Program-made: the position numbers and the translations under genes
Shown here: piece after piece, positions 1 to 37,359 of the stretch
How the letters are laid out: the number at the start of each line of letters is the position of its first letter
Position numbering within the stretch: the stretch's first letter is position 1
The notes under the pieces: model-generated
The model's input: the letters and a program-made list of their open reading frames with translations, nothing else
Told to the model about the DNA's origin: nothing
Database searches by the model: none
From: Uranotaenia lowii
Taxonomy: Eukaryota; Arthropoda; Insecta; Diptera; Culicidae
DNA: 64,000 nt
NCBI RefSeq assembly: GCF_029784155.1
Contig: NC_073693.1
Span: 153,857,442 to 153,921,441, forward strand
Direction of reading: 5' to 3'

Positions 1-3000
1 ATCTTTCTTCCTAAAGGCCGGTAAGTCGAACCAACCATAGATAAATTCCTACTATAGCTCCTGATTTTTTTCCACTATTTTAAATACTTCTGTTTATCAC
101 TTTAATTCTATTACTATCATGGCCAACAATAATCGCAATAGCCCAACACAAAAATCTACAACCAACTTCGCTATACAGTGGAACATCTTTGGTCTCAGAA
201 CTCGACTACCTGAAATTCAACTACTTGCCTCTAAATACTCCCCAATCATTCTCGCTGTTCAAGAAACCCTCGCCCCACACTCATCAATACAAACTAACAT
301 AATTAACGGCTACCACTTCTTGTCACATAAAAACCCCTCGAACCCCTACAGCAGAGGCGTAGGCCTCGGAATAAAAAATGGAATCCCATATTCTTTAGTT
401 AACACAAATTCCTCCCTCAACACTATCTGCGTTCGTCTCGAAGCCCCCATCAAGATCTCTGTAGTTTCCCTTTATGCATCGCCGTCATTATCATACGAAG
501 ACTACACCAAGGGCTTTGATGATCTGATCCCACAAATACCAACCCCTTTCATTCTACTTGGCGATTTTAACGCCCACTCTACTGAGTGGGGGAGTAAAAA
601 CGTTGACCGAAAGGGTGAATTCATCGAGGACTTTGCCCAAACTAATTACCTAACCATCCTCAATGATGGCTCCCCTACACGTTTATGCCCCCGTACGGGC
701 AACACGTCAGCTATTGACTTAAGCATAGTATCCTGGACTCTCGGGCCTAAATTCGGTTGGAAAGCCCTAGAAGACAACGGTGGGAGTGACCACTTTCCCC
801 TCTTAATAAATCTGCAACACCCCTCCCCTGTAGCCGCCACAAGGCCTCGCTGGCGATACGATGAAGCCAACTGGGATGACTACCAAACCCACATTGAAAG
901 TCTCCTCTCCGTTAACGACTCTATTTCCCTCGAACAATTCAACAACATCCTATTGGAAGCGGGTTCCAAATCTATTCCCCGGTCAAGCGGAACACCAGGT
1001 AAAACCTCGGTCCCATGGTGGGGGCCTGAGGTCCGAGAAGCCCTAAAAAAACGAAGGAAGGCTCTTCGACTCTTAAGACGTATTCCCAATGACCATCCCA
1101 ATAAACAAAATGCTTTAATATCTTTTAAAAATGCCAGGGCTGAAGCCAGATCCGCAGTTCGGACCGCGAAAAACAATTGTTGGCTTAAGTTTACCGAAGA
1201 AATTCACCCCAACACTCCTTCCAAAGTCCTTTGGAGCAAAATTAAAATCCTTAACGGAGAACCCCGCAAAAATCAGTTCCATTTGCTCCTTAACCAAAAC
1301 TACACCAATGACCCACTCCTTCTCGCCGAAGCCTTCTGCAAACATTTCTCCTCAACCAACACTGTCAATCAAAATTCAACACCTCCCGAAGAAACCCTCC
1401 CATCTTTTCCACATCTTTCTCTCAGCTGTTCCTACAACTCCGACTTTACCCTAGATGAACTCAACACGGCCCTTCATAAAGTCAAGGGTCTATCTTCAGG
1501 GCCCGATGACATCGGATACCCGTTTCTCAAAAACCTGCCCCTATCAGCCAAAACAACATTTTTAAATATAATCAACCAAATTTGGAATGATGGTTCGATA
1601 CCAAACAACTGGAAACGCGGTCTTGTTGTCCCTATCCCCAAGCCCCAAAAAGATCCAAGTAACATCGATAGTTATCGCCCTATCACTTTGATTGACTGCT
1701 CCGGCAAAATCATGGAAAGACTAGTCAATCACCGCCTCAACACCATTATTGATCAAAAACTACTCTTAGACGACCGTCAATACGCTTTCCGTCCCGGCCG
1801 ATCAACCGATGACTATCTTTGCCTCCTCGAGTGCATTCTGGATGATGCCTTAAGTCGAAGCCAACACATTGATCTATTATCACTGGACCTATCCAAAGCA
1901 TTTGATTGCGTCGAACATAACACCATACTCACCTCCTTGCGAGACTGGGGAATTTCCGGCAGATTATATCTATATATCCAAAGCTTTCTAACAAACCGTA
2001 CTATTCAGGTACTTGTCAACAACTCTCTCTCCAGCCCAAGACAAATGCCTACAGGGGTCCCGCAAGGATCAGTTATCTCTCCTACCCTCTTTCTGATTGC
2101 TATAAACTCTATTTTCAAAATTATTCCCGAAAACATCAAGATTCTTGTATACGCGGATGACATCCTGCTCATCTCGATATCTGCATTTGCCCGCCTAACA
2201 CGAAACAGGCTACAAACAGCCTTAGACAAAATTGCCATTTGGGCACCAAAAATAGGTTTCCGATTTTCCCCTGATAAATCTAAACTTCTGCATCTTGGCC
2301 CTAACAGGAAAAAACTTAAAAAACTCCCTCCCTTGAAACTATTCAATCAGTCCATCCCCTTCGTCCATTCCTTCCGTTTATTGGGTGTTTGGATTGACGA
2401 CCGACTAACATTTTCTACTCATCTCAACCAAGTTAGAAAGAACACCAAGAACAAATTAAACCTACTCCGTATCCTAAGTAAAACCCCAAGTCATGCAAAT
2501 CGGGACTCCCTTGTCAAATTTGTTCATGGATGGTTACTGCCATCAGCGCTATATGGTCTGGGTCTTATCAGCAGATCCGGCCCTAGGCTCTATCACAAAC
2601 TTGAACCTTTATACAACGGATGCATCCGAACAGTTGGTTCTGCGTTTGTCACAAGCCCTATCGTATCGATCATGGCCGAATGCGGCCAACTTCCGTTCAA
2701 CTATCTGGTTGCCAAACACCTTACCTCTAAATCAGTCCGTTGGCTTGCCATTGGAGGCAACAGTGATGCGCCCCTAGTTATCCGCACCAACATCATACTC
2801 CAAAATCTCATAAACTGCTCCCTTCCATCTGTTTGTCCTAGGAGGAAACCTCCGTTTCGATACTGGACCGAAAAAACACCACCTATTGACTTCTCCCTAT
2901 CCCTAAAAATCAAAGCCGGTCAACACCCCTGCACAGTACTACCTCTTTTTCACGAACTAGTTGACAGAAAATACAGGACGACGACTAACATATACACCGA

Positions 3001-3813
3001 CGGCTCCAAAACCATTAACGATCAAGTCGGCTGTGGCATCGAGGATCCTCTCAACAAGCGCAGCCTTGCTCTACCATCTCAGTGCTCCGTCTTTAGCGCC
3101 GAAGCATACGCCCTATTGGATGCCCTTCAAAACATGCCAAATCAACCAACCTCTACAACCATCTTTTCCGACTCCGCAAGTGTGCTGAAAGCAGTCGCCA
3201 AGGGCAGCATAAAACACCCCTGGATATCTTCCATATCCCACGAGGCCTTAACGAAAAGAGCCACCCTGGTTTGGATCCCCGGTCACGCTGGCATACCCGG
3301 CAACGAATCTGCCGACCGCTTGGCTTCTATAGGTGCCAACCTGACCCCACCATCTATACCCATCCCGCAACAGGACGCTTATCGTGATACCTCAAACAAA
3401 ATCTTCCTCGCCTGGGAGAGAGACTGGTCAGCAAATCAAACCGCCAAACTCAGAGAAGTGAAGAACTGCCCCCGCAAATGGATCGACCGGAAAAACCCCA
3501 GAGAAAGGACTGCCCTAACGCGACTACGAATCGGCCATACCAGGCTCACCCAGGGGTATCTTTTGGATAAAGAAGAACCCCCCATTTGCCCCTCATGCAA
3601 TTGCATAGCTTCTGTGAAGCACATATTAGTCGACTGCTCAACATATGAGGTACAAAGAGTAGCTTGTCGATTGGCCAGCAGCTTACGGCAAATACTCTCA
3701 AATTGCCCAGACGAAGAGGAAAAGTTATTAAACTTCCTAGAAACCACAAAACTCCTATTCGAAATTTAAGAGTGCAAATAGGGAAGAATGACATCTAAAT
3801 GTTAAATTCCCAG

Positions 3814-6296: not shown

Positions 6297-6906
6297 ACAC
6301 AAATCGAATACTTACTTACCAATTCCAAATAAATCTGCCAAATATTGCCAAAGTATCAAGCGTTGAAGATCGTCGTTTGGACCAACCTTCGCCTACGATC
6401 GATTGGAGCATTAAAAAGGAAGTTCGCGCCGGTGATAATACATTAAGAATTCAAATAATATTTAACGAGCTGCTGACCCGAAAATATGTAAATCACGATA
6501 AAATCTGCACTGATGGCTCTATGTCAACGAACGGTGCTGGAGTATTTTCTTCTACCCATAAAGTTTCTGCCAAGCTTGGCGACTCATGCTCTGTGTTCTC
6601 GGCTAAAGTGGCAGCTTTAAACCTTACCATTGAATCAATTACTAACAATTAGATAAAGGAATCGGTCATATTCACCGATTCTGCTAGCGCTTTGAAAGCA
6701 CTCGAAACTGGTCGATCGAAACACCCTTGGATAAAGAGACTAGATTCAAAAGACCTATCAAAAGTCACTTTCATTTGGATCCCAGGACATGCGGTATAAC
6801 CGGCAATGAGGAAGCCGATAAATTAGCTGGCATCGGGTACGATAGAAGTTATTGGAAAACAGACGTTCCTGGGAACGACCTTAAGAATTTGATCGAAAAC
6901 ATAGCT
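6297..6906 (+). pseudogene. I-type element RNase H remnant, truncated by the assembly gap
   Basis: The plus strand encodes a decayed RNase H domain: ICTDGSMSTNGAGVF (near 6500), an FSAKVAALNL segment, a stop at 6650-6652, then IFTDSASALKALETGRSKHPW, FIWIPGHA, a frame change, and TGNEEADKLAGIG. Spacing and order match the RNase H of the ORF2 at 119-3769, but the sequence clearly differs, so this is a separate and older copy. About 80 bases upstream of 6377 stay open in frame and probably belong to the RT-RNase H linker. The copy runs into the N gap, so its 3' end is unknown. Confidence 0.8.
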
Positions 6907-7406
6907 NNNNNNNNNNNNNNNNNNNNNNNNNNNNNNNNNNNNNNNNNNNNNNNNNNNNNNNNNNNNNNNNNNNNNNNNNNNNNNNNNNNNNNNNNNNNNN
7001 NNNNNNNNNNNNNNNNNNNNNNNNNNNNNNNNNNNNNNNNNNNNNNNNNNNNNNNNNNNNNNNNNNNNNNNNNNNNNNNNNNNNNNNNNNNNNNNNNNNN
7101 NNNNNNNNNNNNNNNNNNNNNNNNNNNNNNNNNNNNNNNNNNNNNNNNNNNNNNNNNNNNNNNNNNNNNNNNNNNNNNNNNNNNNNNNNNNNNNNNNNNN
7201 NNNNNNNNNNNNNNNNNNNNNNNNNNNNNNNNNNNNNNNNNNNNNNNNNNNNNNNNNNNNNNNNNNNNNNNNNNNNNNNNNNNNNNNNNNNNNNNNNNNN
7301 NNNNNNNNNNNNNNNNNNNNNNNNNNNNNNNNNNNNNNNNNNNNNNNNNNNNNNNNNNNNNNNNNNNNNNNNNNNNNNNNNNNNNNNNNNNNNNNNNNNN
7401 NNNNNN
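6907..7406. other. Assembly gap of exactly 500 N
   Basis: All positions are N. The round length suggests a placeholder gap rather than a measured distance. It falls inside a retroelement remnant, where repeats commonly break assemblies. Confidence 0.98.
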
Positions 7407-7779
7407 CTTACAGAAATCAATTTAACATAGTATAGGGGTTAAGTCTACATTCTGTAAAATCTAATTTCTAGTATTTATTGTAACTGTGAACTGAAATTCC
7501 GCTAGGTTATAACTTCTAATCATTTCATTTTTTTTTATTATTTTGGAACAAATATCAAATTCTCCTTTTGTCTTTTTTTTTTCTTTTATGTAATTCCTTC
7601 GTTGTCTTTACTTCATTCGTTTATGTAACACGTATGTATCTAACGGATTGTTTTCTCTCTATCAGTAATCCAATGAAGATATATACACCGTTTAGGAACA
7701 ATACCACGCCGTTCCGACTTATTCATATTTCAGAGAAGCACCACTTTAATAATCAACAATCATGTTAAAAATATACCGT
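7407..7779. other. No gene; possible 3' end of the interrupted retroelement
   Basis: AT-rich sequence after the gap. It may include the 3' UTR of the I-type remnant that enters the gap at 6906, but no poly(A) or simple-repeat tail marks an end. No coding frame is supported. Confidence 0.35.
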
Positions 7780-9268: not shown

Positions 9269-9273
9269 GCATG
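9269..9273. repeat. Target-site duplication GCATG (left copy)
   Basis: GCATG directly precedes the 5' LTR; the same five bases directly follow the 3' LTR at 14561-14565. Five bases is the normal footprint of LTR integrases of this group. Confidence 0.92.
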
Positions 9274-9469
9274 TGTAGTGTATTGACTATTATTCAGGAT
9301 TGGAATAGTTCTCTGCACACCTTGCCATATCTACCTTGTATTATGTCATATTGCTACCACCAGCATATACACATACCTTGGCTTGCTGACGGGCGAGCTG
9401 TCAGGTAGCCCGCCACTCGATCGGGGATTAAGTTGCAGACTGCGAAGAAGGACGGACGCGAATCTTACA
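9274..9469 (+). repeat. 5' LTR (196 bp)
   Basis: Starts TGTAGTG and ends CTTACA, with the usual TG...CA termini. It matched the 3' LTR base for base on reading. An LTR supplies promoter and polyadenylation signals; no clear TATA box was identified in this short LTR. Confidence 0.95.
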
Positions 9470-9471
9470 AC

Positions 9472-9489
9472 TGGCGACGATTGGAAAAA
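9472..9489 (+). promoter_or_regulatory. Probable primer-binding site
   Basis: TGGCGACGATTGG begins two bases after the 5' LTR, where a tRNA 3' end (CCA) would pair with TGG. The start TGGCGAC resembles primer-binding sites reported for mdg1/412-type elements, but the priming tRNA cannot be fixed by eye. Confidence 0.65.
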
Positions 9490-10029
9490 TCGAGGAAATT
9501 AGAGGTAAATATACAACTCGTGGAAAACTCTTCTTGTGAGGAAGGGGAGGAAAACTTTAGCTAGAAAAGTGAGCTACTGGTGGCGGCTTGAATAGTGTGT
9601 TTAAACGCGAGAATCAAGTAGGATTTTCCGTGGGTCGAACTTTGCGAGAACCAAAGTGGTTCTCATGGCGTTGGCGGGAATCATAAGGATTCCCCCTGTA
9701 TGAATAGCGAGAATTTCTTAGAATTCTCCTGGGGGCAAAGTTCGAGAGAATGTGGAATTCTCAAGGAGTAAGCGGAAATCTTGGGATTTCCCTGAAGTTG
9801 ATTCCGAATCGGAAGGATTCAGATTGTATGACGGGACGCAAAGCTTGATGTTCAAGAGTGAGGTTATGTCAAAGAAAACTTTGCTCTGTCCAGGATATTC
9901 CCAGGCATGTTTTCTTTCCCTCCAGGCGTCATATTCGGGGTTAATTCACGTTGGAATTAATCGGAGTTAGATTCACATTTACAAGTAAATGAATGTGTTG
10001 AGAGTAAAGTTTTGTTTTTGTCATTCCAG
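9490..10029 (+). other. Leader of the LTR element, possibly containing a third intron
   Basis: This 540-bp stretch has no long gag-like frame. It ends in 'gtttttgtcattccag' directly before the gag ATG, a good splice acceptor, and has good donors such as AGAG/gtaaat at 9505. A leader intron of about 525 bp is thus possible, but several donors exist and the pairing is a guess. Confidence 0.4.
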
Positions 10030-10533
10030 ATGGAGGAATCGCGAGCTGTTCCACCCTTTCGTTGCGATAGGATCGAAACGGGAAAGCTTGCTCGGGAGTG
10101 GAAAGCGTGGAAAGAGTCCCTAGAGTGTTACTTTGCTGCCTATGACATAACCGATCAAAAGGTTATGCGTGCGAAGTTGCTCCACCTGGGCGGCACTGCC
10201 TTGCAGTCGGTTTTCAAGAACCTTAAAGACCACGACCACGTCCCACTAGTAGCACTTGTTCCACGATGGTACGATGTGGCGGTGGAGAAACTCGATGAAT
10301 TTTTCGAGCCACGGCATCAAAGTACCTCCGAGCGCAGAAAGCTCCGGCTGATGAAGCAGAACCCTGGTGAGAGGTTTGCGGACTATATCATCCGACTCAA
10401 GCAGCAAACTGCCGAATGCGGATTTGAGAAATACGGAGCCGAGATCGAAGAAGTTTTGAAGGACATTTATCTTACCGACGCTGTGGTCGAAGGATGCTCT
10501 TCGAATGAAGTACGCAGGATGATTTTGCTAAAG
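10030..10533 (+). CDS. gag, exon 1 of the spliced gag-pol frame
   Basis: Starts at the ATG at 10030 (context ccagATGG) and encodes 168 residues of a capsid-like Gag: WKAWKESLECYFAAYD near the N-terminus, then a region with RRKLRLMKQNPGERFADYIIRLKQQTAECGF, typical of the retrotransposon gag family. An upstream in-frame ATG at 10012 would add six residues. The frame stays open only to 10545. The last exon codon is AAG at 10531-10533 and the next bases are gtttgt, a splice donor in phase 0. Gag forms the virus-like particle in which reverse transcription takes place. Confidence 0.88.
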
Positions 10534-10601
10534 GTTTGTTGCTGATGTTTTTTTTTATGAGTCAGACTGGTTTAATAGATAGGTTTTTTTTTGTATTAAA
10601 G
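10534..10601 (+). other. Intron 1 of gag-pol (68 bp, GT-AG, phase 0)
   Basis: Donor AAG/gtttgt and acceptor ttttttttgtattaaag/GAT, with a strong pyrimidine tract. The length is not a multiple of three and the segment contains an in-frame stop. Removing it joins RRMILLK to DLPFADIEAIG in one frame, the expected run from the Gag C-terminal domain into the nucleocapsid. A size of 60-70 bp is typical for insect introns. Confidence 0.82.
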
Positions 10602-11993
10602 GATTTACCCTTCGCGGACATTGAAGCGATTGGTATGACCCAAGAAAGTGTGGATCAGCAGATGGTTGAGATTACTTCGACCCAGTCGGCATCTCGCTCA
10701 GGAGAGAAAATATTTAGCGTTCACCCACAATCTCGGGACCGCCGTGCAGCTCCCAGGAATGACACCAACACCACGTGGCAGATGAAGACATGTTTCAATT
10801 GTGGCCGTACTGGACATTTTTCAACTGCTTCAAAATGCCCAGCTCGCGGGAAAGAATGCCGCAACTGTAAAACACACGGCCATTTCGAGAAGCAATGTCG
10901 TAAACGAAAGTTGCTGCACACAGGACCCTCGGAGAGGAAGCAGGTTCGGGTGATTGAAACCGTCAGCACGGACAACGCTCTACGTGTCGAGCCACTTGAG
11001 AATGAATACAAAGAAAACTCTACGCCGGATAAGGTGTACTACGCCTTTTACTCTGGTAACGAGTCCAATGTGCTTACCTGCGTCGTCGGTGGTATCCCAA
11101 CGCAGATGTTGGTTGATTCTGGCGCTGATGCCAACTTGATTAGTGAGGTGGCGTGGACGAAAATGAAAAAGGACAACGTTGCGGTGTACTCTTCAATGAA
11201 AGGAAGCAATCGGGTGCTGCGGGCGTATGGAAGCAACAATCCTTTGACCATTTTGGGATCCTTCGTTGCAGATATATCAGTGGGTGTTAAGACCGTTCAA
11301 GCTGAATTTCTCGTCGTTAAAGGCGGTCAACGGTGCCTTCTCGGGGACTTGACGGCAAAGCAACTTGAAGTGTTGCATGTTGGACTGCCCGTTAATCGTG
11401 TCGAGATTGCTGCGCGTCCATTCGGAAAGATCAAGGGAATCAAGGCTTACATTCACATGGACCCCGAAGCTGTTCCTGTATTTCAACCTATGCGCCGGAT
11501 CCCTTTGCCGTTGGAGGAGGCTGTCGCCAAGAAAATTGATGAATTACTGAAGCGTGATATCATCGAGGTCAAAAAGGGTCCCACCAGCTGGGTATCTCCT
11601 CTGGTTGTCGTAGGAAAAGCAAACGGCGAACCGCGATTGTGCGTTGATCTTCGGCGAGTGAACGAGGCCGTTCTCCGCGAGCATCACCCGATGCCGGTCG
11701 TTGAGGACTACATTGCGCGATTGGGAAGAGGATCTGTTTGGAGCAAGCTAGATATTCGTGAGGCGTTTCTGCAAATCGAACTAGCAGAAGATTCTCGAGA
11801 CGTTACAACTTTTATGACTAACCGTGGACTATTCCGCTTTAAGCGATTGCCGTTTGGCTTGGTAACGGCACCAGAGCTTTTCCAAAAAGCTATGGACGAG
11901 ATGTTGGCAGACTGTAGCGGAACCTATTGGTACATCGATGACATCATCGTCGAGGGAAAGGACGTCGAAGAACACGATGATCGTCTGGAGAAG
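10602..11993 (+). CDS. gag-pol exon 2: nucleocapsid, protease, RT N-terminal part
   Basis: 464 codons. Two zinc knuckles lie at about 10792-10906: CFNCGRTGHFSTASKC (C-x2-C-x4-H-x5-C) and CRNCKTHGHFEKQC (C-x2-C-x4-H-x4-C); they bind the genomic RNA. The protease has the catalytic LVDSGAD near 11110. The RT begins around 11490 with PMRRIPLPLEEAVAKKIDELL, then LCVDLRRVNEAV and KLDIREAFLQIEL, and reaches the catalytic YIDD near 11932. The exon ends LEK at AAG 11991-11993, followed by the donor gtacat. The frame would stop seven bases later if unspliced. Confidence 0.93.
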
Positions 11994-12137
11994 GTACATT
12001 GATCTGCAGATTATTTGATAAAGCTTTATTTCTTGTTTCTTTTCAATTCTTATATAAAATAAACTAAATTTCTCGAACTTAACTCCTATCGTTATGAAAT
12101 AAATATAACTGGGTCTTAGTAAGTGTTTTGTTTCTAG
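11994..12137 (+). other. Intron 2 of gag-pol (144 bp, GT-AG, phase 0)
   Basis: Donor AAG/gtacat and acceptor gtgttttgtttctag/GTT. The segment is AT-rich, unlike the GC-richer flanking exons, and holds in-frame stops (first at 12000-12002). Removing it joins HDDRLEK to VLSRLKDREVEL, the normal continuation of a Ty3/gypsy RT after the YIDD block. Confidence 0.85.
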
Positions 12138-14288
12138 GTTCTTTCTAGATTGAAGGATAGGGAAGTTGAGCTCAAATGGGAAAAATGTCAACTGCGCGTG
12201 GACGAATTGGAATTCTTGGGGTATCACATCTCCAAACAGGGAATTAGGCCTTCCGAGGCGAAAGTAGCAGCCCTAATGTCATTCCGCGAGCCTCAGAATG
12301 AAGCAGAGGTACGTAGCTTTCTCGGCTTAGCAAATTATCTGAACAGATTTATCCCACACCTTGCTACTATTGATGAACCGTTGCGAAAACTTTTGGTCAA
12401 GAGTACTAAATTCGAATGGGGTACTAGAGAATCCGATTCTTTTCAATCAATCAAAACTGCATTGAGTAACGTGAGTATCTTAGGATTCTATCGAGTAGAA
12501 GACCATACAGCTGTTGTTGCCGATGCCAGCCCTTCTGGGCTAGGAGCTGTTCTACTCCAATTCGACCATGAAAATAAGCCACGCGTCATCAGCTTTTCAT
12601 CCAAATCCTTAACAGAAACCGAACGACGGTACTGTCAAACTGAGAAGGAAGCGTTAGCCGTCGTTTGGAGCGTGGAACGCTTCCAGTACTATCTACTTGG
12701 AAAGAAGTTCGACATTATGACTGACTGTAAGGTTCTTGAACTTCTGTTTTCTAAGCGCTCAAGACCTTGCGCACGCATAGAACGCTGGGTCCTGCGACTG
12801 CAAACATTCGACTACAACATCGTACATGTCTCTGGTGATAAAAACATAGCTGATCCTCTGTCTCGCTTAGCTGTCCAAGAGCCGAAACCTTTCGATACTG
12901 CGGAGGAAATATTCGTTCGTGAAGTAGCCATGCAATCAGCTAATTGTGCAGCACTTACATGGAACGAAATATTGAAGGCTTCAGAGGCCGACAACGATAT
13001 TCTTGAGGTTTTAGATATTCTGAAGGATGGCAATCTACAGAACTTGCCTGTAGAGTATAGGGTAGTTGCCAATGAGTTGTGCAGCTTCCAAGGAGTGCTG
13101 CTACGAAGCGACCGAATCGTTATACCTGTTTCATTGAGGGAAAAAGTACTAACAACAGCTCACGAAGGCCATCCCGGTATCGTGATGATGAAGGGTCACC
13201 TGAGATCCAACGTGTGGTGGCCCAAAATGGACCAGGCAGTGGAACGATTCGTCAAGCGCTGCAGAGGCTGTGCATTAGTTGCTGCACCAGAACCACCAGA
13301 GCCAATGAATCGTAGTCGTCTTCCTACATCCCCTTGGCAAACTCTTGCGCTGGATTTTTTAGGTCCATTACCTGAGGGACAACACTTGTTGGTTGTAGTT
13401 GACTGCTACAGCCGGTACATGGAGGTAGTTGAAATGGAAACAACGACTACGAAAGATGTTATGCGGGAGTTAATGATCATGTTTAGTCGGTATGGCATTC
13501 CATCCTTCTTGAAGGCTGATAACGCGCCACAGATTAGTTCGGATTGTGAGGAATTTCGGGAGTTTTGTTCGACTAACGGAATTAAGCTGCTGAACACCAT
13601 ACCCTACTGGCCTCAATCCAACGGAGAGGTAGAAAGGCAAAATCGGTCGATTTTAAAACGCCTTCGTATCTCACAGGAACTCGGGAAGGATTGGAGAAAC
13701 GAGCTACGGCTGTATTTACTAACATATCATTCCTCCAAGCATCCAACCACAGGAAAATCTCCAGGAGAGTTGATGTTTGGACGTCCGATCAAAAGCAAAC
13801 TACCGACCATTTCAAACTTTCCTGAAGACGGAGAAGTGCGCGAGAGAGATGCTCTCGTCAAAGAAAAGGGGAGAGAGTATAGTGACAGAAAGCGGCATGC
13901 AAAAGAAAGCGATATACGACAGGGGGATGTTGTACTCGCTAAACGGATGCGCAAAGCGAATAAATTGGACACAGAGTTTTCGAACGAAGAGTTCGTAGTT
14001 CAGCGTAAAGAGGGGACTGATACCCTTATACAGTCAAAGCTCACTGGTAAACAATACAGGCGTAGTTCGGCGCACCTGAAGAAGATCGAGGACCAAGAAA
14101 CCATACAGGAGACTCACAGCGATGAACTACGAGATGTTCCGGATCTTATGCCGGCAACGGCTCAACATGAATCCGGACCTATGACGGAAACAGAAAACAC
14201 ACCATCGGAGACAGCATCTTCCCTAAGACCTTCAACTACACGACGAAGGAATGCACCGTCGAAGTACCAAGACTATGTTCCGCATTGA
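12138..14288 (+). CDS. pol exon 3: RT C-terminal part, RNase H, integrase
   Basis: 716 codons plus stop. The RT thumb (CQLRVDELEFLGYHIS) leads into RNase H (VVADASPSGLGAVLL near 12520, TEKEALAVVWSVERF, TDCKVLELLF). The integrase has an HHCC finger (HEGHPG...RCRGCAL, about 13160-13275), a DDE core with LALDFLGPL near 13350, FLKADNAPQ near 13508 and PQSNGEVERQNRS near 13612, and a C-terminal basic region ending near GKQYRRSSAHLKKIE. The spliced gag-pol product would be about 1348 residues. No frameshift or stop was found, so with both introns removed it looks functional. A polyadenylation-like AATAAA lies near 14313. Confidence 0.93.
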   Translation, partial: VLSRLKDREVELKWEKCQLRVDELEFLGYHISKQGIRPSEAKVAALMSFREPQNEAEVRSFLGLANYLNRFIPHLATIDEPLRKLLVKSTKFEWGTRESDSFQSIKTALSNVSILGFYRVEDHTAVVADASPSGLGAVLLQFDHENKPRVISFSSKSLTETERRYCQTEKEALAVVWSVERFQYYLLGKKFDIMTDCKVLELLFSKRSRPCARIERWVLRLQTFDYNIVHVSGDKNIADPLSRLAVQEPKPFDTAEEIFVREVAMQSANCAALTWNEILKASEADNDILEVLDILKDGNLQNLPVEYRVVANELCSFQGVLLRSDRIVIPVSLREKVLTTAHEGHPGIVMMKGHLRSNVWWPKMDQAVERFVKRCRGCALVAAPEPPEPMNRSRLPTSPWQTLALDFLGPLPEGQHLLVVVDCYSRYMEVVEMETTTTKDVMRELMIMFSRYGIPSFLKADNAPQISSDCEEFREFCSTNGIKLLNTIPYWPQSNGEVERQNRSILKRLRISQELGKDWRNELRLYLLTYHSSKHPTTGKSPGELMFGRPIKSKLPTISNFPEDGEVRERDALVKEKGREYSDRKRHAKESDIRQGDVVLAKRMRKANKLDTEFSNEEFVVQRKEGTDTLIQSKLTGKQYRRSSAHLKKIEDQETIQETHSDELRDVPDLMPATAQHESGPMTETENTPSETASSLRPSTTRRRNAPSKYQDYVPH

Positions 14289-14353
14289 TTTTCTGATTTT
14301 GAAACATTATTAAATAAATCTCTTATCGTTAAACTATTTTGCATTTTTATTTC

Positions 14354-14364
14354 AAAGGAGGGAT
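14354..14364 (+). promoter_or_regulatory. Polypurine tract
   Basis: AAAGGAGGGA lies directly before the 3' LTR (one base apart), the expected primer for plus-strand DNA synthesis. Confidence 0.85.
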
Positions 14365-14560
14365 TGTAGTGTATTGACTATTATTCAGGATTGGAATAGT
14401 TCTCTGCACACCTTGCCATATCTACCTTGTATTATGTCATATTGCTACCACCAGCATATACACATACCTTGGCTTGCTGACGGGCGAGCTGTCAGGTAGC
14501 CCGCCACTCGATCGGGGATTAAGTTGCAGACTGCGAAGAAGGACGGACGCGAATCTTACA
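14365..14560 (+). repeat. 3' LTR (196 bp)
   Basis: No mismatch to the 5' LTR was found on reading. It starts TGTAGTG and ends CTTACA, followed by the target duplication GCATG. Confidence 0.95.
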
Positions 14561-14565
14561 GCATG

Positions 14566-16059: not shown

Positions 16060-16580
16060 AAAAGGTCCGTGTTTATACAAACACATAAAGCGGTTCCTTG
16101 AACCCGTGCTAGCGTCAGCTGCACCTCCAATTCGACCTGATAGGCCCGTGTTTGAATAAACACATTTAGCGAACTATATAAGTTCCGTGCCTGACAAAAC
16201 AGCACATATATCCCGACCAATTTGGTCCGTGTTTCAATGAACACATTCAGCGAACTCTTTAAGTTCCGTGCCTGACAAAACAGCACATACATATATCCCG
16301 ACCAATTTGGTCCGTGTTTCAATGAACACATTAAGCGGACTCTTTATGTCCCGTGCCTGACAATACAGCACATATATCCCGACCATTAATGGCCCGTGTT
16401 GTTTCTGCATTCATTTAACAGTCATATAGACCCGTGCCAAGCACATTTAAATCAACATCAATAAGGTCCATGTTCTACAACATTTTCCAATACCTTTTCA
16501 AAATGCTAACACTATCCTAGCTTCCAGTCATGTAGACCAATACCAATCACATTCAAACTAACCTTTAACTAGGTCCGTGT
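16060..16580. repeat. Degenerate tandem repeat, period about 80 bp
   Basis: The motif GGTCCGTGTT (or GGCCCGTGTT) recurs near 16064, 16142, 16224, 16309, 16391, 16465 and 16570. Between motifs the units share 'gaacacattcagcgaactctttaag' type and 'ttccgtgcctgacaaaacagcacatat' type segments. The middle units (16142-16390) are the most alike and the outer ones decay. The minus-strand frame across it is only a by-product of the repeat. Confidence 0.85.
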
Positions 16581-26066: not shown

Positions 26067-26862
26067 TTGAGAACCGGAGGGATACTTTTCGTCACATTTT
26101 TTCACCTCTTCTCAGAAACGGTATCAGAGCGATAAGAGCTATGAACCACCATAACACTTTTTCATGAGAATGAACTTCATACATGGGAGAGCGGTTCTCT
26201 CGCTCATTTGAGTTCATCCTTACGATGATTCAAATTATCATGGTAGCACTGTAGCATGCGTCGAATATCTTGGGAATAATATAATACTATATTCCTTTCA
26301 AAAGAACACAACTTTAAAACCTACGTTATGTGCAACTTAAACTGCGATTTCGGCTGCTGAAACTGTTTACATATTGAACTAAACGAAGAGATCCATGTCT
26401 CAAGTCTCCCGAAAAGTATGGGAGATATTCAGCAACCAAAATGTAAACATAAACAAGTCTCGTCAAACGAAATCGCACTTCAAGTTGCCGAGTGTGGACG
26501 AAGCTTTAAAATCCCAGAAAAATTAAACGTTATGTTTAAAAAGAACATTATTCACTTCCTTTAACCTATTGAATGGGAATAGTATAATACGTCGACACGA
26601 TGTTACACTGATCGTTATAACGAGGACACAACTCCGCCAAGCTTTCAAAACGAACCATAACTTGCCTTCACACGGATCAAATTTATGTTGATTCAGGAAA
26701 GTTAAATTGAGCGGTACCGCACGCGCTCTTTCTCTTCACGGACAGCCGACAGAACGAAGCACCGGACCGGAACAAAACATTCTCTATTTAGGACATTTAG
26801 GATGGGCGCGCTCGCAATCTCGGTATACAATTTTACCTGGACCAATTCAAAAACTTCATCAC

Positions 26863-28009
26863 GGACATGAAGTATGTCAGCCAGAAGAAGATTATCGTGT
26901 TCCTGAGCAGCTTTACGAAAGCCAACTTACTAGTCGATGAAGTAAGCAAAACCGGATCCGTTTACAAAGCTTACATCCCCAGCCACTTGGTATGTATTAC
27001 GGGTGTCATTGCGGGAGTACCAACTGATATTGACTTGGAAGAGGTAAAGTGCGACATCCAGAGCGATGTTCCGATAGTTAACATTAGTCGAATGTTTAAG
27101 GGGAAAGAAAAAGAACCCATAAATCGACTTCGCATCACCTTCCGATCACAACAGTTACCCGAATCAATAAAATTATTTTGCTGCTCGGCAAAAGTGAGAC
27201 CGTTTACCCCGTCGATAATGGTATGCGGACAGTGCCTGAGATTTGGTCATAAGACGACAAACTGCAGGGGAACAAAACGCTGTGAAAACTGCTCCGAACG
27301 ACACGAAGAAGCCGAAGACTTTGCAAACTGCAAAAATCAACAAAAGTGCGCACATTGCCGGAGTAACGATCACAACTCTCTTGATGGAAAGTGCCCGGAG
27401 AGAAAACGCCAGCAGGATATAAAATTCCTTATGTCCAAACGAAATTGGACGTACACGGAAGCAAAAGAACAAATCGCAGTATCAAATCAGAATCTCTATG
27501 CCCCATTATTGAACGCGGAAGACTACCCGACACCTAGTGAAAGTTTTGCCCAAATGACAAAAGGTAGCTATACATGGAAGGACCCTATGCGAGAAGCTTG
27601 GACGAAGACTAACATGGAACGCAAACCAATGCAGGCGGCAGTAAAAACTTATCAGGATCACCCGAAGCAGAACAACACGAACTATAAAAGGGCCAGATTA
27701 GAAGAGGCTAGCACATCGAAAGTCAAGGAAACATACGATAAGCGCGATGAAATCATTGCCAAACTATCAGGTAATAACCGTGGAACAGCAATGTACAACT
27801 CCAGGAAGGTCGAAGAACAAGAGAGATGGCAAAATGCGGTAAGTCAAGCCAAATTAACTTTAGATCGAGACTATCAAGAAAGAATGATGACTTTCTACGC
27901 AGATTTTATAAGTCTGCTAGGACCACAGGAAGAAGTAAAAGCTTTGTTCAAAAATTGTACGAAAAAACATTTCAATTTAGCAAACTCTGTAATTTTAAAC
28001 AAAAAATGA
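26863..28009 (+). pseudogene. Element B ORF1, main part with zinc knuckles
   Basis: Continuation of ORF1 to a total of about 457 residues. It carries an RRM-like/ORF1 core (KTGSVYKAYIPSHLVCITGV, INRLRITFRSQ) and three knuckles: CGQCLRFGHKTTNC, CENCSERHEEAEDFANC and CAHCRSNDHNSLDGKC. The tail is polar and has a helical stretch (RWQNAVSQAKLTLDRDYQER). It would package element RNA with ORF2. Only the internal ATG at 26867 remains as a start on this side, so a truncated product lacking the first 77 or so residues is conceivable but unproven. Confidence 0.88.
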
Positions 28010-28062
28010 GCCCCTGCAATATTATCGCATTTACCCCTGAATAACAACCCATCTAACCAGAA

Positions 28063-31000
28063 ATGGCTACGACAAACGAACTTAAAATTTTACAAGCAAA
28101 TGTACAAAGCATTCATAAGAATAAAGCTGAAGTTCAACGAATACTTTCAGCAGGAGGTTATTGTGCGGCAATACTGTCAGAAACTTGGACGAGTAAAGAT
28201 CTAGAAAACACGAACAGATACAACATTTCAAATTATCATTTTATCCCACATTCACGAAACGACAACTACGGAGGAGCAGGAATTTTCCTTCAAAATACAA
28301 TGAATTACATTAGATTACTAACACCTTCAAACCTCTCTCCACTTACACAAACAGTAACCATCCAGATTGCCCAGTTAGATCTAACTATTTGCTCGGTTTA
28401 TGTGAGCCCATCGATCAGCATACAAGATTTTGAGGCAGATATTCAGGCTATTTTTACCAACATTGAGCGTCATTCAAAAATTATATTGGGTGGCGACTTC
28501 AACGCACACCACACGGATTGGGGTGATGAGACATGTGACACAAGAGGAGAAAAATTTATGGAAATTATTAACAACAGCAATCTTTTGATACTCAACGATG
28601 GTAGCAAAACATTTGTGCCTTTACAGCTAAACAAACGTTCTTCAGCTATTGATGTAACGCTGTGCTCCACAAGTTTAATAGATGAGGTTTGCTGGACCGT
28701 TCTAGACTACGGGGTAGGAAGTCATCACATGGGTATGTCGATAACATGGAAAACCGACTCTTACCGAAACAATAAATTTTATTTCAACAAAAAACTCATT
28801 TGCAAAGAAATTGCTAGCTTAGAATGCTATGAGTTTGACAATATCTCTGAGTTTTCGTCTAAAATTAAAACAATACATAAAGCCAACAGAATGAAAAGCA
28901 AATACACGCCGAAGTTTTGGTGGTCCGAAAATGTAGATGAAGCGTGGAGGGACAAAACAGCTGCTAGGAAAAAATTTAATCAAGTTTCAACTGCAGCTAA
29001 TCTGTTAGAGTTCAAACGAAAAGCTGCTATCTTTCAAAGGAAGAAGAGGGAGGAAATCCGCAAAAAGTTCGAAGACTTCTCCAACGAAGTTAACCCCTTC
29101 ACTAGTTCGAAGGAACTATGGCAGAAGGTGGGACGCTTAACTGGTAAACGTTTCTATAAAAAAGAGAACAGCTTGTTACACGACGATGAAGCTATGGCAG
29201 AGGATTTCTTGGACACGCATTTTGGTAAGCACGACCCACAACCAGTTGAAAATCCTCTAAGTACATTTACTGGAAGTTTGTTGGACAGAGAGTCCTGGTA
29301 TAGGATATTAGCCTCTAAAAAGAAAACATCGGCTCCTGGGGAAGATAATCTTTCCTATGAGCTTTTGACTCATCTAAATCCAATTGTAACTGAAAAAATA
29401 ATTTGCCTTCTAAATGGCATGTGGATGCGAAGCGCTCTTGAAGAAAGTTTAAAAGTAATTAAAATAATAGCTATACCAAAGCCTGGCCGAGACCAGAGCA
29501 CTGCAGCAGGTAAACGTCCTATTTCTTTAGTACCTACTCTCACAAAAATGGCAAACACAGCGGTACTAGAACGTTTACAAGATTTTCTCGATGCTAATAA
29601 AATCCTCCCTGAAACATCATTTGGCTTCCGCAAACACACTTCGACGAATACATGTGTAACCTTTGTTACCAATTGGTTGAAACACAGCAAAAGAAATAAA
29701 TTCCTGACTGCCATGATCTGTATCGACTTATCGAACGCCTTTAACGCTATAAATGTTGATAAGCTGGAAGAAATATTAAAACAAATAAACACTCCACATG
29801 AAGTGCTCGGTTGGATAACATCCTTCCTGAGAAACAGAAAGATCAATTTTCATATGAAGCATAAAACTTTATCGAGAGTAATCAATAATGGGCTTCCTCA
29901 GGGTGACGTACTCTCGCCTACCCTTTTTAACATCTACACTATAGATCTACACAAGAACGAACATCCTGACGTAGTTCTGGTACAATATGCAGATGATTTT
30001 GGAATTCTGATAAGAGCAAAACAGCTGCACACACTCAACGAAGTCGGAGAAGCTTATTTAAGCAGATTTGCTGAAACAGCCAGAAATTTAAATTTCTCGA
30101 TAAACCCAGAAACAACGAAAACATTACTTTTTCAACATGGCGTTAAACAGCTCACTATCTTTCTAAACGGTACTCTTCTAGAGTCGGTAAGATGTCATAA
30201 GTATTTAGGCATAGTATTCGACCGTTACCTTAGCTTTGGTGTTCATATAAAAGAAGTTAGATCAAAGGTACAAGATCGTTTAAATATGATCAAAGTACTT
30301 TGTGGGACAAAATATGGAGCTCACCCAGAGTCTATGATAAAAATACAAAAAGGACTCTTCCGAAGCAAAATGGACTATGGAAGCTCAATATATAATAACG
30401 CCTGCAAAACAAATCGGAATATCCTAGCAGTACTGAACAATCTATGCCTAAGAAAGGTGACGGGAACTACAAGAACAACGCCTAGAAATGTATTAGTAGC
30501 TCTAAGTGGACAGGAGCCCGTTGATCTTAGACACACATACATCGCCTCCAGAGAAATTTGCCGGCATATATCCAGAAATAACTTAATTGCTCGTCAACTC
30601 AAAGAAATCCAACTACCTGAGGATACGAATCAATGGAACCAGTACACTTACTTAGAACGAACATACTGGATGAACAGAGAGGTGTTTGATCGTATTCAAA
30701 TTATCGAACGCTCCGGCAATGTGCAAAACGTTGAAATATTCCCGAACTTGGAAGGTTTGACCAGCTCGAAACAAAACTCAAATCCGTTTAGACTGAAACA
30801 ATTGGCACTCTTCGTGATGAATGGCAAATATCGGAGTCGTGGTCGCGTTTTTACGGATGCTTCCAAGGAAGGCGCGATTTGCGGCATAGGAATTTTTGTT
30901 GAACGATCAAGAACACGGCTATCACTAAGGCTTTCAAAGGAAACTAGCATCACCTCTGCAGAGCTGATCGCTATCCACAAAGCAACTGAAATAATTGAGC

Positions 31001-31674
31001 AACAGTGTCTAGAAGACTCAGTCATTTACACTGATTCACAAGCCTCGTGTATGATGCTTTTAAATGCACAGGAATCCAAGGAGGATGAAGGAATTCTGGT
31101 AAAAATTCTCCAAAGCTGCTCTCAACATCGAATCACCATCCAATGGATTCCGAGTCATGTGTCCATTGGTGGTAACGAAATAGCTGACGCACTAGCCAAA
31201 CACGGGCTCCAGTCGGATCATGTGATAGAAAATATGTTCATGCTAACGGATGGTTTTAACGCACTTAAGAAAACTCTGGCTAGAAGCACTACGGAATGGT
31301 ATCAACAGTACTCACTAGAAAAGGGGAAAACCTTTCACTCCATCCAACCGGTTTTTTCTACATCGCCTTGGTTCGTGGGAAAGAATTTGAACGGAAAAGA
31401 TGTGCGCCTCTTAAATCGCTTGATGGCTGGCCATGATTTTTCAAGGTACTGGCTGGCTAAGATCAAGGTAATCGATGATGCTGACTGCGACCTTTGTAAC
31501 GAACCCGAAACCTCCAACCACGTCATTCTTTCTTGCCCACGATTCACCTCTACAAGAGTAAAATATGACTTTAATGGAAAGTACACAGAATTGAAGGATC
31601 TATTCAAAGCAAAGAATTTAACTCATTATGAGGAAATAGTTAAATTTATTAAGGAAATCAAAATCGATTTATAA
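28063..31674 (+). CDS. Element B ORF2: endonuclease / RT / RNase H, intact
   Basis: 1203-residue open frame starting 53 bases after the ORF1 stop. Endonuclease: LQANVQSIHKNK, LSETWTS, GGDFNAHHTDWG, SAIDVTLCS and SHHMGMSI (residues about 8-230). RT: IPKPGRDQ...KRPISLVPTLTKM, FGFRKHTSTN, ICIDLSNAFNAIN, GLPQGDVLSPTLFNIYT and the catalytic QYADDFG near residue 640. RNase H: VFTDASKEGAICGIG near 928, SAELIAIHKA, IYTDSQASCMML and WIPSHVSIGGNEIADALAKHG. The C-terminal finger is CDLCNEPETSNHVILSC. All catalytic residues appear present. The protein could act on other RNAs in trans if expressed, although ORF1 in this copy is broken. Confidence 0.94.
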   Translation: MATTNELKILQANVQSIHKNKAEVQRILSAGGYCAAILSETWTSKDLENTNRYNISNYHFIPHSRNDNYGGAGIFLQNTMNYIRLLTPSNLSPLTQTVTIQIAQLDLTICSVYVSPSISIQDFEADIQAIFTNIERHSKIILGGDFNAHHTDWGDETCDTRGEKFMEIINNSNLLILNDGSKTFVPLQLNKRSSAIDVTLCSTSLIDEVCWTVLDYGVGSHHMGMSITWKTDSYRNNKFYFNKKLICKEIASLECYEFDNISEFSSKIKTIHKANRMKSKYTPKFWWSENVDEAWRDKTAARKKFNQVSTAANLLEFKRKAAIFQRKKREEIRKKFEDFSNEVNPFTSSKELWQKVGRLTGKRFYKKENSLLHDDEAMAEDFLDTHFGKHDPQPVENPLSTFTGSLLDRESWYRILASKKKTSAPGEDNLSYELLTHLNPIVTEKIICLLNGMWMRSALEESLKVIKIIAIPKPGRDQSTAAGKRPISLVPTLTKMANTAVLERLQDFLDANKILPETSFGFRKHTSTNTCVTFVTNWLKHSKRNKFLTAMICIDLSNAFNAINVDKLEEILKQINTPHEVLGWITSFLRNRKINFHMKHKTLSRVINNGLPQGDVLSPTLFNIYTIDLHKNEHPDVVLVQYADDFGILIRAKQLHTLNEVGEAYLSRFAETARNLNFSINPETTKTLLFQHGVKQLTIFLNGTLLESVRCHKYLGIVFDRYLSFGVHIKEVRSKVQDRLNMIKVLCGTKYGAHPESMIKIQKGLFRSKMDYGSSIYNNACKTNRNILAVLNNLCLRKVTGTTRTTPRNVLVALSGQEPVDLRHTYIASREICRHISRNNLIARQLKEIQLPEDTNQWNQYTYLERTYWMNREVFDRIQIIERSGNVQNVEIFPNLEGLTSSKQNSNPFRLKQLALFVMNGKYRSRGRVFTDASKEGAICGIGIFVERSRTRLSLRLSKETSITSAELIAIHKATEIIEQQCLEDSVIYTDSQASCMMLLNAQESKEDEGILVKILQSCSQHRITIQWIPSHVSIGGNEIADALAKHGLQSDHVIENMFMLTDGFNALKKTLARSTTEWYQQYSLEKGKTFHSIQPVFSTSPWFVGKNLNGKDVRLLNRLMAGHDFSRYWLAKIKVIDDADCDLCNEPETSNHVILSCPRFTSTRVKYDFNGKYTELKDLFKAKNLTHYEEIVKFIKEIKIDL

Positions 31675-31780
31675 TACCATGAACCGAAGAAACAGGGCAT
31701 ATAGTCTTAGCCACTGGCCCTTACAACCCGAACTGCGATGCAGTTCAAGTAGAGAAAGAAGAAGAAGAAGTAAGTTTCTT

Positions 31781-33985
31781 TTAAATGCTATCAATAAATC
31801 GTCTTTGGTAAGAAGAAAGTGTTCAATATTCGTTCGAGTTGTTCCAAGTTTTGCTGCTATATCAGCTCTTTCATTTCCCAGATGTCCCGTGTGTCCTGGG
31901 ATCCATTGGATGGTAACTTTGTTAATTGTACTACTCTCTATAATTTGTTTAATATTTGCAGCTATATGGTTGTTTGTTACGTGTTTCTTCAGCAGTGTAC
32001 AGGCGCTTTGAGAATCAGTAAAAATCACGATTTCATTAATATTTTTATTGATAAGATGTTTAAGTACTTCTTGTATGGCAATTAACTCCGCATTCATGAT
32101 AGTGTATTCTGGCTTAAGTCGACCGCTATAGGACACCTTTTCTTGAGGATCGTAGTATCCGTAGCCTACCTTTTCTTCTATTATTGAGCCGTCAGTGAAA
32201 ACTTTATATTGGTTTTTATATTTATTATTGTTAAGTTCTGTTATCATAATTTTCTGTTTTTCTTTCGATGAATCCTTTTTAGTGATATTTTCTATTTTAT
32301 TTTTAATTATTATTTTATTGCTAGTCGTTTCTTTTACTTCAGAGGCTAACTGTCTGAAAAGATAACTGTTCTCTGATGCTACTTTTTCAAGATAACTATA
32401 GTGTTTATATGTTGTATTCGTTAACATCAGATCTGAGAGATGTTCTATGATAGGATTATTTTTATAATATAATATTTTTGTTATTTCTTTAGATGCTAGC
32501 CACTCCGCTCTCAGTTTAAGCGGAATTTCTCCTGTTTGTTGGAAAACTACATGATTTGGAGTTGTATGTAATAGTCTCGTTGAAAGTCTAAGTGCTAAGA
32601 GCAAGACTGGTTCTAGTCTTTGGAAATTAGTCTTTGCGGTGGCTGCATACACAGTTATTCCGTAGTCTAATATAGATTTGATTAAAGCTTTTGTTATTTG
32701 CAACATTTGTGCTGGGTGAGCTCCACTTTTTCTTCTACTAATCATTTTTAAAATGTTGATTTTGCGTTTGGCTCTAATTATTGTTTCTTGAATGTGGGTT
32801 TTAAATTTGAGTTTATGATCTAATATTATACCTAGGAATCTGTGATTTTGTACTAGTTCTACTACTTGTTGTTCTATTTTTATATTGATTGTCTGTGGAA
32901 TTTTATTTGTAAATATAATGGAAGCTGATTTGGATGGATTAATTTCTAAATTTAAATCTTTGAATGCCTGTATTAATTTGTTGAGAATAGTGTTTGTATT
33001 TCTAGCTGCTATTGTTGCATTTATTGCTCTAACTAATATTGTGAAATCATCTGCAAACTGTATCAAGATATCATTTCCCATCAGATTATGTAATTTCTTC
33101 GTGTATATGTTAAATAATATGGGGCTCAAGGGACATCCTTGGGGTAGACCCTTGTTCGTTTTATTGATTATTTTTTCTCCATTTTGGAGTGTCAAAATAG
33201 TGGTTCTAGTTTTTAAATAGTGGTAGATCCAATTTGTAATTTGATCTGGTATGTTTTCGTTCTCAAGTATCCCTAGAAGTTTTTCTATATTAACGTTATC
33301 GAAAGCTTTAGTGAGATCTAGAAAAGTGGCAATGATAACTCCACCGTCTCTTTTTGTTTCTTGTATTTCGGATACTACCGTGTTAATGCAGTTGACTGCT
33401 GAAGTATTTTTCTTAAATCCAAAAGATGTTTGCGGAATGATTTTGTTTTCGGTAAGGTAGTCTACTAATTTATTTTTAACTGTAAAATTGTTGAGCTTTA
33501 ATAGAACCGACATCATAGATAAAGGACGATATGATGTTGGAATCAATGGATCTTTATTTAATTTTAAAATTGGTACAATTCTTGTTTCTCGCCAATCTTC
33601 AGGAATGTTGCCTGTTTCTAATACTTTTGTCAGTAACTCTGCAATTCTTATTAAGAGATCAACTTTTAGATTTTTTAATATATAAAACGATATGTTGTCT
33701 GGACCTGGAGTGGAATGATCCTTTTTTGCTCTCAGGATTTTTTTAATTTCTTCTAAACTTATGCTGAGTTGTTCATTTGTTGTTTTATTTCGATATTGGA
33801 TTGATTTCTCTATTCTAGGAAAGTTCAGGTTCATGAAATTGTTACTTAAATTTGAGTCATTAAGCAGCCATATATTGTTTTTAGCAGGTCTGCCTCCACT
33901 TATTATTTTGACTGTGTTCCAGAGTTGTTTACTATTCATGTCATTGTTAATACTTTCAATTGTTTCTTTCCAACATTTTCTTTTT
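31781..33985 (-). pseudogene. Element A ORF2: reverse transcriptase and RNase H
   Basis: Minus-strand frame with RT motifs TSYRPLSMMSVLLKLNN, TSFGFKKNTSAVNCI, TFLDLTKAFDNVN, GLPQGCPLSPILFNIYT and the catalytic LIQFADDFTIL (FADD in place of YADD). RNase H follows: VFTDGSIIEEKVGYGY, NAELIAIQEVL, IFTDSQSACTLL and WIPGHTGHLGNERADIAAKLG. The domain order matches element B, but the sequences differ, so A and B are different families. The frame is out of register with the endonuclease part at an AAAAAA run near 33990, and the real element ends at the B junction (31781); the open frame to its left is antisense B 3' UTR. Confidence 0.9.
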
Positions 33986-35020
33986 TCCGTCCTTATTTGT
34001 TTTTTTTAATTTTGCTCTCGCCTCTTTGTATTCTATAAAATTTCTATCGTTTTGGTTTCTTAAGAAAAATTTTAATTTATTGTTTTTCTTCGCTAACAAA
34101 AACTCAATTTCTTTCGTCCACCACTTTTTGGGATTTTTTTTTGAATTTTCTGAAATTTCAAAAGAACATTTATCCATTTGCTCCTTGAATATTGACGTTA
34201 TATCTTCCGGTTCATGAAACATTTCCGGTTGAAGATTGTTTAAATTTATTAAAAGTTGATTTTTATTTACGATCTTTCTATTGATTGGAATTGTCTTCGT
34301 TGAATTCTGGATGATAATTTTAATGACTCTATGGTTGCTAAAAAAATCTTCGTTCAATACACTCCATTCCGATTTTGAAGCTATCGTGGGGGTTGTGAAC
34401 GTTAAATCTATTGCCGAAGGTGTGGTATTTGGGGGTTTAATTAATGTTGGTGTTCCATCGTTTAGTATTATCAAATTAGTATTTTCGGTTAAATGGCTGA
34501 TTAATTCTCCTCTAGGACAGTTGACGTGATAAGGATTCCACATTTGGTGGTGCGCATTGAAATCACCAGCCAGAATTGTTTCACAACCTATGGTTTCTAT
34601 TTGTTGGATTAATTTAACTAGGGGTGTTCTAATATTATTATTGTTGACTGGATATGGAGGTATATAAATTGATATTAATAGTATGGGAAAAGATGTATTA
34701 ATTGTTCTGATAGCTACCACTTCTACTGGGTTTGATTTATCTATTTTAATATTTTCAAAAATTATATTCTTTTTAATTAGGATGCCTACTCCACCGTAAC
34801 CTGATTGTCTCGATTGAGTGACTAAATTATATCCTGGAAAATTATATTTTTCATTTGGTTTCAACCAAGTTTCTGATAATAAAACTATATCTACGTCATG
34901 TTTTTTAAGGTACTGTTTTAGAAGCTCTCGTGTGTCCATGGGTCTGATACTATTGATATTACTTTGTAATATTATTAAATCCTTATAATTTTCACAATCC
35001 ATTTTGGTTACCTGTATCAT
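33956..35020 (-). pseudogene. Element A ORF2: AP endonuclease part
   Basis: 354-codon frame beginning MIQVTKMDCENYKDLII. Endonuclease motifs: LQSNINSIRP, LLSETWLKP, YGGVGILIKK, LAGDFNAHHQMW, TPSAIDLTF and SNHRVIKI. It ends in KTNKDGKKKMLERNN after a slip at an A-rich stretch; the correct frame continues as KCWKETIES into the RT part. One extra or missing A thus separates the endonuclease from the RT. Confidence 0.88.
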
Positions 35021-35102
35021 TAATACTATTATCTAGCTTCTAATTGTTAGATTTTAATAATTTTTTTTTTTGTATTTTTTTTAATATTTTATTTTTAAAA
35101 AA

Positions 35103-37345: not shown

Positions 37346-37359
37346 TTGTGCACAGTTTT

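Follow-up and report, generated by a model that had tools for sequence, protein, structure and literature searches.

The window examined here, a 64-kb stretch of Uranotaenia lowii DNA (C3:153857442-153921441 of its assembly), contains at 9274-14560 on the forward strand a Ty3/gypsy LTR retrotransposon of a mosquito lineage that appears to be active, or to have been active very recently, and to carry spliceosomal introns. Two of these interrupt the gag-pol frame at 10534-10601 (intron 1) and 11994-12137 (intron 2), and a third lies very probably in the leader at 9505-10029. In our reading, the unspliced RNA would be the genome and the spliced RNA the mRNA, and the splicing ratio may set the balance of products. 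We consider this account as a whole highly probable on the basis of sequence comparisons.

The element has the hallmarks of a Ty3/gypsy insertion. It is flanked by the 5-bp target-site duplication GCATG (left copy 9269-9273, right copy 14561-14565) and bounded by two TG..CA LTRs, a 196-nt 5′ LTR at 9274-9469 and an identical 3′ LTR at 14365-14560. Just inside the 5′ LTR is a probable primer-binding site, TGGCGACGATTGG (9472-9484), which we take to be of the tRNA-Ser type, and a polypurine tract identified by inspection, AAAGGAGGGAT (14354-14364), precedes the 3′ LTR. The coding region runs on the forward strand in the order Gag-CCHC, protease, RT, RNase H and integrase. Exon 1 (10030-10533, 168 codons) encodes the 5′ part of gag; exon 2 (10602-11993, 464 codons) encodes the 3′ part of gag with a CCHC knuckle, the protease and RT to just past the YIDD motif; and exon 3 (12138-14288, 716 codons plus stop) encodes the remaining RT, RNase H and integrase. 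Pfam matches in exons 2 and 3 were zf-CCHC, RVT_1, RT_RNaseH, Integrase_H2C2 and rve, and exon 1 gave no Pfam match; the protease is our presumptive assignment, made by the DSGA motif only. The best solved relative of exons 2 and 3 was Ty3 Gag-Pol (structure chain 7q5b_A).

Elsewhere in the window, LINE-like open reading frames with endonuclease, RT and RNase H domains occupy 65-3769 (+), 28057-31674 (+) and 31669-35032 (-), and those at 26801-28009 (+) and 35377-36699 (-) may be the first open reading frames of these elements. A Tc1/mariner-like transposase remnant with a helix-turn-helix and a weak DDE_3 match lies at 37339-38238, and 50565-51206 and 57523-57945 resemble it by eye. An 81-85 nt unit is present in three tandem copies at 16123-16373, and the assembly has an N run at about 6905-7407.

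Both segments within gag-pol look like phase 0 GT-AG introns. The borders of intron 1 (68 nt) read AAG/GTTTGT...TATTAAAG/GAT and those of intron 2 (144 nt) AAG/GTACAT...TTTCTAG/GTT. GC content is 0.265 in intron 1 and 0.257 in intron 2, compared with 0.46-0.50 in the exons, and T content is 0.53 and 0.44, compared with 0.23-0.24. Frame 0 is closed by stops in both; intron 2 has five, the earliest at its third codon (GTA CAT TGA). Homologous proteins run on across both sites. At junction 1, the alignment gap was 0 in 104 of the 112 fetched proteins reaching both sides, with gaps of 1, 2 or 9 residues in the other eight, and at junction 2 it was 0 in all 102 proteins classed as contiguous. When searched separately, exons 2 and 3 abut on 7q5b_A, residue 462 of exon 2 corresponding to position 764 and residue 1 of exon 3 to position 767. 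The two RT pieces join on Ty3 with no residue lost, which places intron 2 within RT, a short way past YIDD. Each segment offers a single frame-keeping GT..AG pair within 12 nt of both homology borders. As for spliceosomal GT-AG introns, we found GT and AG at the exact homology border, a pyrimidine-rich 3′ end and lengths that drift free of the frame. Their recurrence in every family copy read, their frame-blind indels and their fixed borders place the segments beyond chance.

Searches of the U. lowii genome found 14 matches for the region of intron 2 and ten for that of intron 1. Copies of the family, which lie on two chromosomes and have several LTR variants, were counted from strand-oriented loci with exon ends as separate probes. 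Both introns were present in all eight copies read at both sites, and neither was missing from any family copy read. Eight copies have an intron 1 of 64-68 nt and a ninth has one of 203 nt; for intron 2, the length is 143-149 nt in eight of the copies and 103 nt in one other. The eight copies read at both sites include six insertions, the window's among them, with identical LTR pairs and a 5-bp target-site duplication of their own, all of which hold both introns and the leader segment. In the five besides the window, the LTR pairs are identical over 196-197 nt, the 5-bp duplications match and the LTRs are 100, 100, 98.5, 98.0 and 91.5% identical to those of the window. This variety among fresh insertions means that several variants moved recently, introns included. 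Over the exon pieces compared, the C1:159.45 copy differs from the window at 14, 14 and 60 sites in codon positions 1, 2 and 3; its introns are 88% and 92% identical to the window's and its exon pieces 94-98%. Two copies have no bearing on dating, namely C3:18.75, which gave no LTR match, and C1:51.611, a partial copy that lies 3,120 bp away from C1:51.614 and shares its five upstream bases; that pair (C1:51610895-51619132) is a tandem duplication or an assembly artefact. The copy with the 203-nt intron 1 (L017, C3:226379468-226379590) has an insertion within the intron.

The initial annotation of this DNA had described two GT-AG segments with stops, in phase 0, at points where homologues are contiguous, and its coordinates proved exact. 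Its observation of identical LTRs and an intact 5-bp duplication holds over all 196 nt, with GCATG on both sides, and the recent insertion that it proposed from an RNA with both introns is repeated in the five further insertions with their own duplications. Related copies without both segments, or with segments at shifted positions, which it had named as contrary evidence, were not found within the family.

Intron 1 is young and confined to the window's family. Junction 1 could be read in 29 loci, and an insert of 65-68 nt was present in 6/6 loci of the window's family and 0/23 loci of nine other families. The NCBI gene model P0001 from U. lowii matches exon 2 at 100% identity and fuses it to exon 1 with exactly intron 1 removed; it then reads two codons into intron 2 and stops. 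Its K instead of E is that of the C1:51.61 copies, and their DNA holds a 65-nt intron 1. As a gene model, P0001 supports the predicted splicing at intron 1. No precise loss of intron 1 was seen among the copies read. TAAAG occurs at both ends of the intron, a pair that may hint at a duplication made on insertion.

Intron 2 extends much further. We searched the U. lowii genome with P0014 as the probe and scored 70 of 4853 candidates; the ten families referred to here are those among the resulting 30 loci. Junction 2 was readable in 29 loci, and 28 of them, from all ten families, carry an insert at the same codon boundary. The inserts are 63-149 nt long, except for 1361 nt in L046, and end in AG in 28/28 and start with GT in 27/28 (L041 has GG). 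Across the ten families they are unrelated in sequence, have a GC content of 0.19-0.32 and are often not a multiple of 3 in length. Only L056 has no insert. It matches L058 at 98.9% identity in a block of 2922 nt and at 99.4% in one of 1385 nt, and L058 has a 120-nt GTATGA...TTTTAG segment precisely at the L056 join, so that what L056 lacks is bounded by the splice points. The LTR pair of L058 is identical over 227 nt. L056 keeps its leader, and its LTRs are incomplete (5′ positions 106-227 and 3′ positions 1-37 only), for which reason we make no claim that it was inserted by the normal route. The pair presents what reverse transcription of a spliced RNA would leave and supports probable splicing at intron 2. 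The donors are often non-consensus after GT(A/G). A uniformly weak donor, first read from S after V in 2/103 proteins, was rejected, as the DNA shows donors from GTGAGT and GTAAGA to GTTATT. In three related elements (C1:129316758-129318833, C2:139926510-139928672 and C3:142721190-142723349), the matches break near P0014 residue 480, with about 105-175 nt containing stops between the pieces, possibly an intron elsewhere.

The same site is marked in homologous proteins from other mosquitoes. With exon 2, 311 homologues were found among 7996 scored, and the best 120, all 255-812 aa, thereby excluded uncut Gag-Pol; a second homologue search was run to bring in such proteins. Among the best 120, 114 reach the intron-2 site and 103 of these stop within 10 codons beyond it, although 102 is the fairer count, since the tail of P0034 is pol-like and this protein is probably contiguous but truncated. 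Split proteins have K, E or Q (NAG codons) just before the site in 100/103, compared with 38/73 in the outgroup, and V (GTN) follows in 103/103. Tails end no more than 3 codons past the site in 92/103 proteins, compared with 53/337 AG/GT sites in the window. On the tree, the codon preceding the stop turns over at least 54 times, against just 9 changes of the early-stop state. In pairs such as P0054 and P0113, the displayed upstream residues are identical, and one continues as KKVL-stop, the other as KKVLDRFKERG onward. Where exon-3 homologues have a non-homologous upstream stretch, Q (CAG) stands right before the first exon-3 residue in 4/4.

The intron-2 site is spanned by 214/337 fetched proteins, nine of which were unclassable and do not appear in the trees. 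Tree rows lacking an NCBI organism name (source codes lgn and ena) were taken as open reading frames from assembled contigs, DNA or RNA. In the 206-row tree, the window and the split proteins fall in one 133-row clade (support 100) together with 29 contiguous rows. This clade includes 71 rows without an NCBI organism name (65 split, 6 contiguous) and 61 NCBI models (38 split, 23 contiguous), and its split NCBI rows come from nine genera, Uranotaenia, Malaya, Toxorhynchites, Armigeres, Sabethes, Ochlerotatus, Aedes, Topomyia and Wyeomyia. Without NCBI models (76 rows), two changes suffice to explain the tree, with five contiguous rows branching early and a sixth, P0251, nested inside. On the other side, 38 NCBI models of the clade, P0001 among them, run into intron 2 and end there, the annotation being generally without splicing there, and spliced forms are inconspicuous among the in-group rows without an NCBI organism name (6/71 contiguous). 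No DNA of relatives outside the host genome was found in viral contigs (exon 3, alignments A1 and A2) or in genome contigs (A2). Judged from the alignments and trees, intron 2 is an old trait of the lineage.

A third intron is very probably present in the leader at 9505-10029 (+), with the predicted borders GAG/GTAAAT ... TTTTGTCATTCCAG/ATG. The window's leader (9470-10029) has nine upstream ATGs, all inside the predicted intron, and the leaders of other families have 9-50. The segment is 525 or 536 nt long and present in all family copies read. A pyrimidine-rich stretch followed by CAG (21) or TAG (3) stands directly before the gag ATG in 24/24 placeable loci from nine families. Among homologues lacking an NCBI name, 8/8 of those that reach 3 or more residues upstream of the gag Met have Q there, counting P0022 after a one-Met alignment shift, whereas 0/10 contiguous distant proteins do. 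A donor-like site, picked by inspection, lies within about 70 nt after the primer-binding site in nine of the ten families, one of which has several candidates; no primer-binding site was found in the tenth. These donors are GTAAAT in the window and GTAAGT, GTGAGT, GTAAGG, GTACGT, GTTTGT or GTAATT in other families. Since the segment is present in every copy read and no copy was found to have lost it, no loss event vouches for the leader intron.

Because the introns survive retrotransposition in six insertions at the DNA level, the RNA that was copied was uncut. We propose that the unspliced transcript is packaged and copied, each new insertion carrying the introns again, and that spliced transcripts would act as mRNA. 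Leader splicing would remove the nine upstream ATGs, and perhaps a packaging signal too, making mRNA and genome different RNAs. By the reading frames, complete Gag would need splicing of intron 1 and RT-RNase H-integrase would need splicing of intron 2, and an RNA keeping only intron 2 would give a Gag-protease product ending 1-3 codons into the intron. The conserved early stop suggests that the splicing ratio could replace the usual frameshift in setting Gag:Pol. As the stop stays in place while the neighbouring codon drifts, the short product may be made and important. The splicing suggested by the initial annotation gains support from the precise intron-2 loss in a related family and from the P0001 model. 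The annotation's supposition of a family trait stood for both introns within the family. For intron 2 the trait extends to ten U. lowii families and a broad mosquito clade, but intron 1 does not go beyond its own family. The annotation had missed the probable leader intron before gag.

Several other explanations were weighed against this scheme. With nothing beyond the single window in hand, the segments could be copy-specific insertions or assembly artefacts that resemble introns, to which we give next to no credence because they are in every family copy read, on two chromosomes and with several LTR variants; their recurrence in copies with separate LTR pairs and duplications led us to reject chance insertion. 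The segments might instead be translated around, with readthrough, a frameshift or ribosome bypass at the end of the first open reading frame giving RT-RNase H-integrase. A stop 1-3 codons beyond the site is found in 92/103 proteins, strong conservation of the kind that a recoding stop would show, yet readthrough would have to pass the five frame-0 stops of the window's intron 2 and inserts of 63-149 nt that are variable, unrelated among ten families and often frame-breaking, and it does not account for the maintained AG ends and NAG/GT starts or for an L056 that lacks the insert exactly between the splice points. We rejected it as very improbable. No better, in our estimate, are the chances of a split polymerase, with the two open reading frames translated separately and the RT halves assembling. 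Two long open frames with a conserved end to the first would fit, as would the many homologous second-frame proteins that begin inside exon 3, but the second frame has no conserved start codon and its called starts are scattered over many places, while the Q (CAG) before the first exon-3 residue in 4/4 is what an acceptor would give; separate initiation was rejected on these grounds.

A more serious competitor accepts the introns and makes them passive: splicing would be constitutive, protein would come from fully spliced RNA, and unspliced RNA that escaped by chance would be packaged, with no role in Gag:Pol. All of the DNA data fit this explanation. Retained intron 1 would truncate Gag, hence some products need full splicing in any case, and leader splicing alone could separate mRNA from genome. 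It leaves unexplained why the stop is kept no more than 3 codons from the donor despite turnover of the preceding codon, and we hold it to be a real possibility that nonetheless falls well short of even odds. The splicing scheme proposed above can also be stated for a mosquito-wide lineage: splicing replaces frameshifting, a spliced leader gates gag and parts translated from packaged RNA, retention of intron 2 sets Gag:Pol, and introns can be gained and are kept by export of uncut RNA. In this general form it remains tentative, with a chance that we would put slightly under one half.

Intron loss is the classic proof of retrotransposition (PMC12786077, in the part of the text available). Elements copied from RNA are expected to lose introns, and families named from nine mosquito genera have kept intron 2. 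Its persistence raises the questions of how unspliced RNA is exported from the nucleus with no obvious extra protein, how the element keeps its genome and mRNA apart, and whether frameshifting can be replaced by a splicing ratio. Together with the fresh gain of intron 1, the L056/L058 pair amounts to dated intron loss and gain inside a mobile element.

In retroviruses, the major splice donor lies immediately 3′ of the primer-binding site and gag is read from unspliced RNA, and a leader intron is found in HIV-2/SIV. The predicted leader donor of the mosquito element is at the same place relative to the primer site, but its acceptor abuts the gag ATG. An intron inside RT, a leader acceptor abutting gag and a mosquito-wide spread were absent from the portions of the literature searched, though an earlier report is possible. 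In Ogre, the intron lies between protease and RT. Both elements have an intron inside gag-pol, but the mosquito intron 2 follows YIDD, inside RT between YxDD and the next RT motif, and intron 1 is in gag and the leader intron before gag. Spliced LTR elements described in the consulted excerpts are Ogre, EVADE, BARE1, copia and Cer1 (PMC12786077, PMC3735527, PMC10309623). Ogre, a plant Ty3/gypsy element of the Tat lineage, has its gag-pol intron in partly spliced transcripts, with splicing between open reading frames, according to excerpts of two of these sources (PMC3735527, PMC12786077). According to an excerpt from 2005, introns upstream of gag had not been reported for any LTR retroelement, Ogre included (PMC1142308); no later report was found in the literature searched.

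In size, LTR length, Ser-type primer site and target-site duplication, the window element is like Mag-lineage elements of Culex and Anopheles. These are given as ~4.5-5.3 kb with LTRs of ~140-300 nt, 5-bp duplications and 1 or 2 open reading frames, and Ser is listed as the primer tRNA for many (PMC3286476). The available parts of the Culex and Anopheles surveys mention host-gene introns only (PMC3286476, PMC3026039), and those of an Aedes proteomics paper do not mention element introns (PMC5248466).

Cer1, a Ty3/gypsy element of Caenorhabditis, has a genomic RNA with used splice sites that is exported uncut, and a splice acceptor before the initiator ATG is noted across species in the same excerpt (PMC10309623). 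It differs in that splicing makes an extra protein, CERV, and Cer1 gag-pol is read from unspliced RNA. In the Ty1/copia elements copia of Drosophila and BARE1 of barley, splicing shifts the Gag to Pol balance, as described in the extracts consulted (PMC3735527). Their spliced RNA is Gag-only, whereas the spliced mosquito RNA would carry Pol and the un- or partly spliced RNA would be Gag-rich: by the frames, removal of intron 2 opens Pol and its retention ends the frame.
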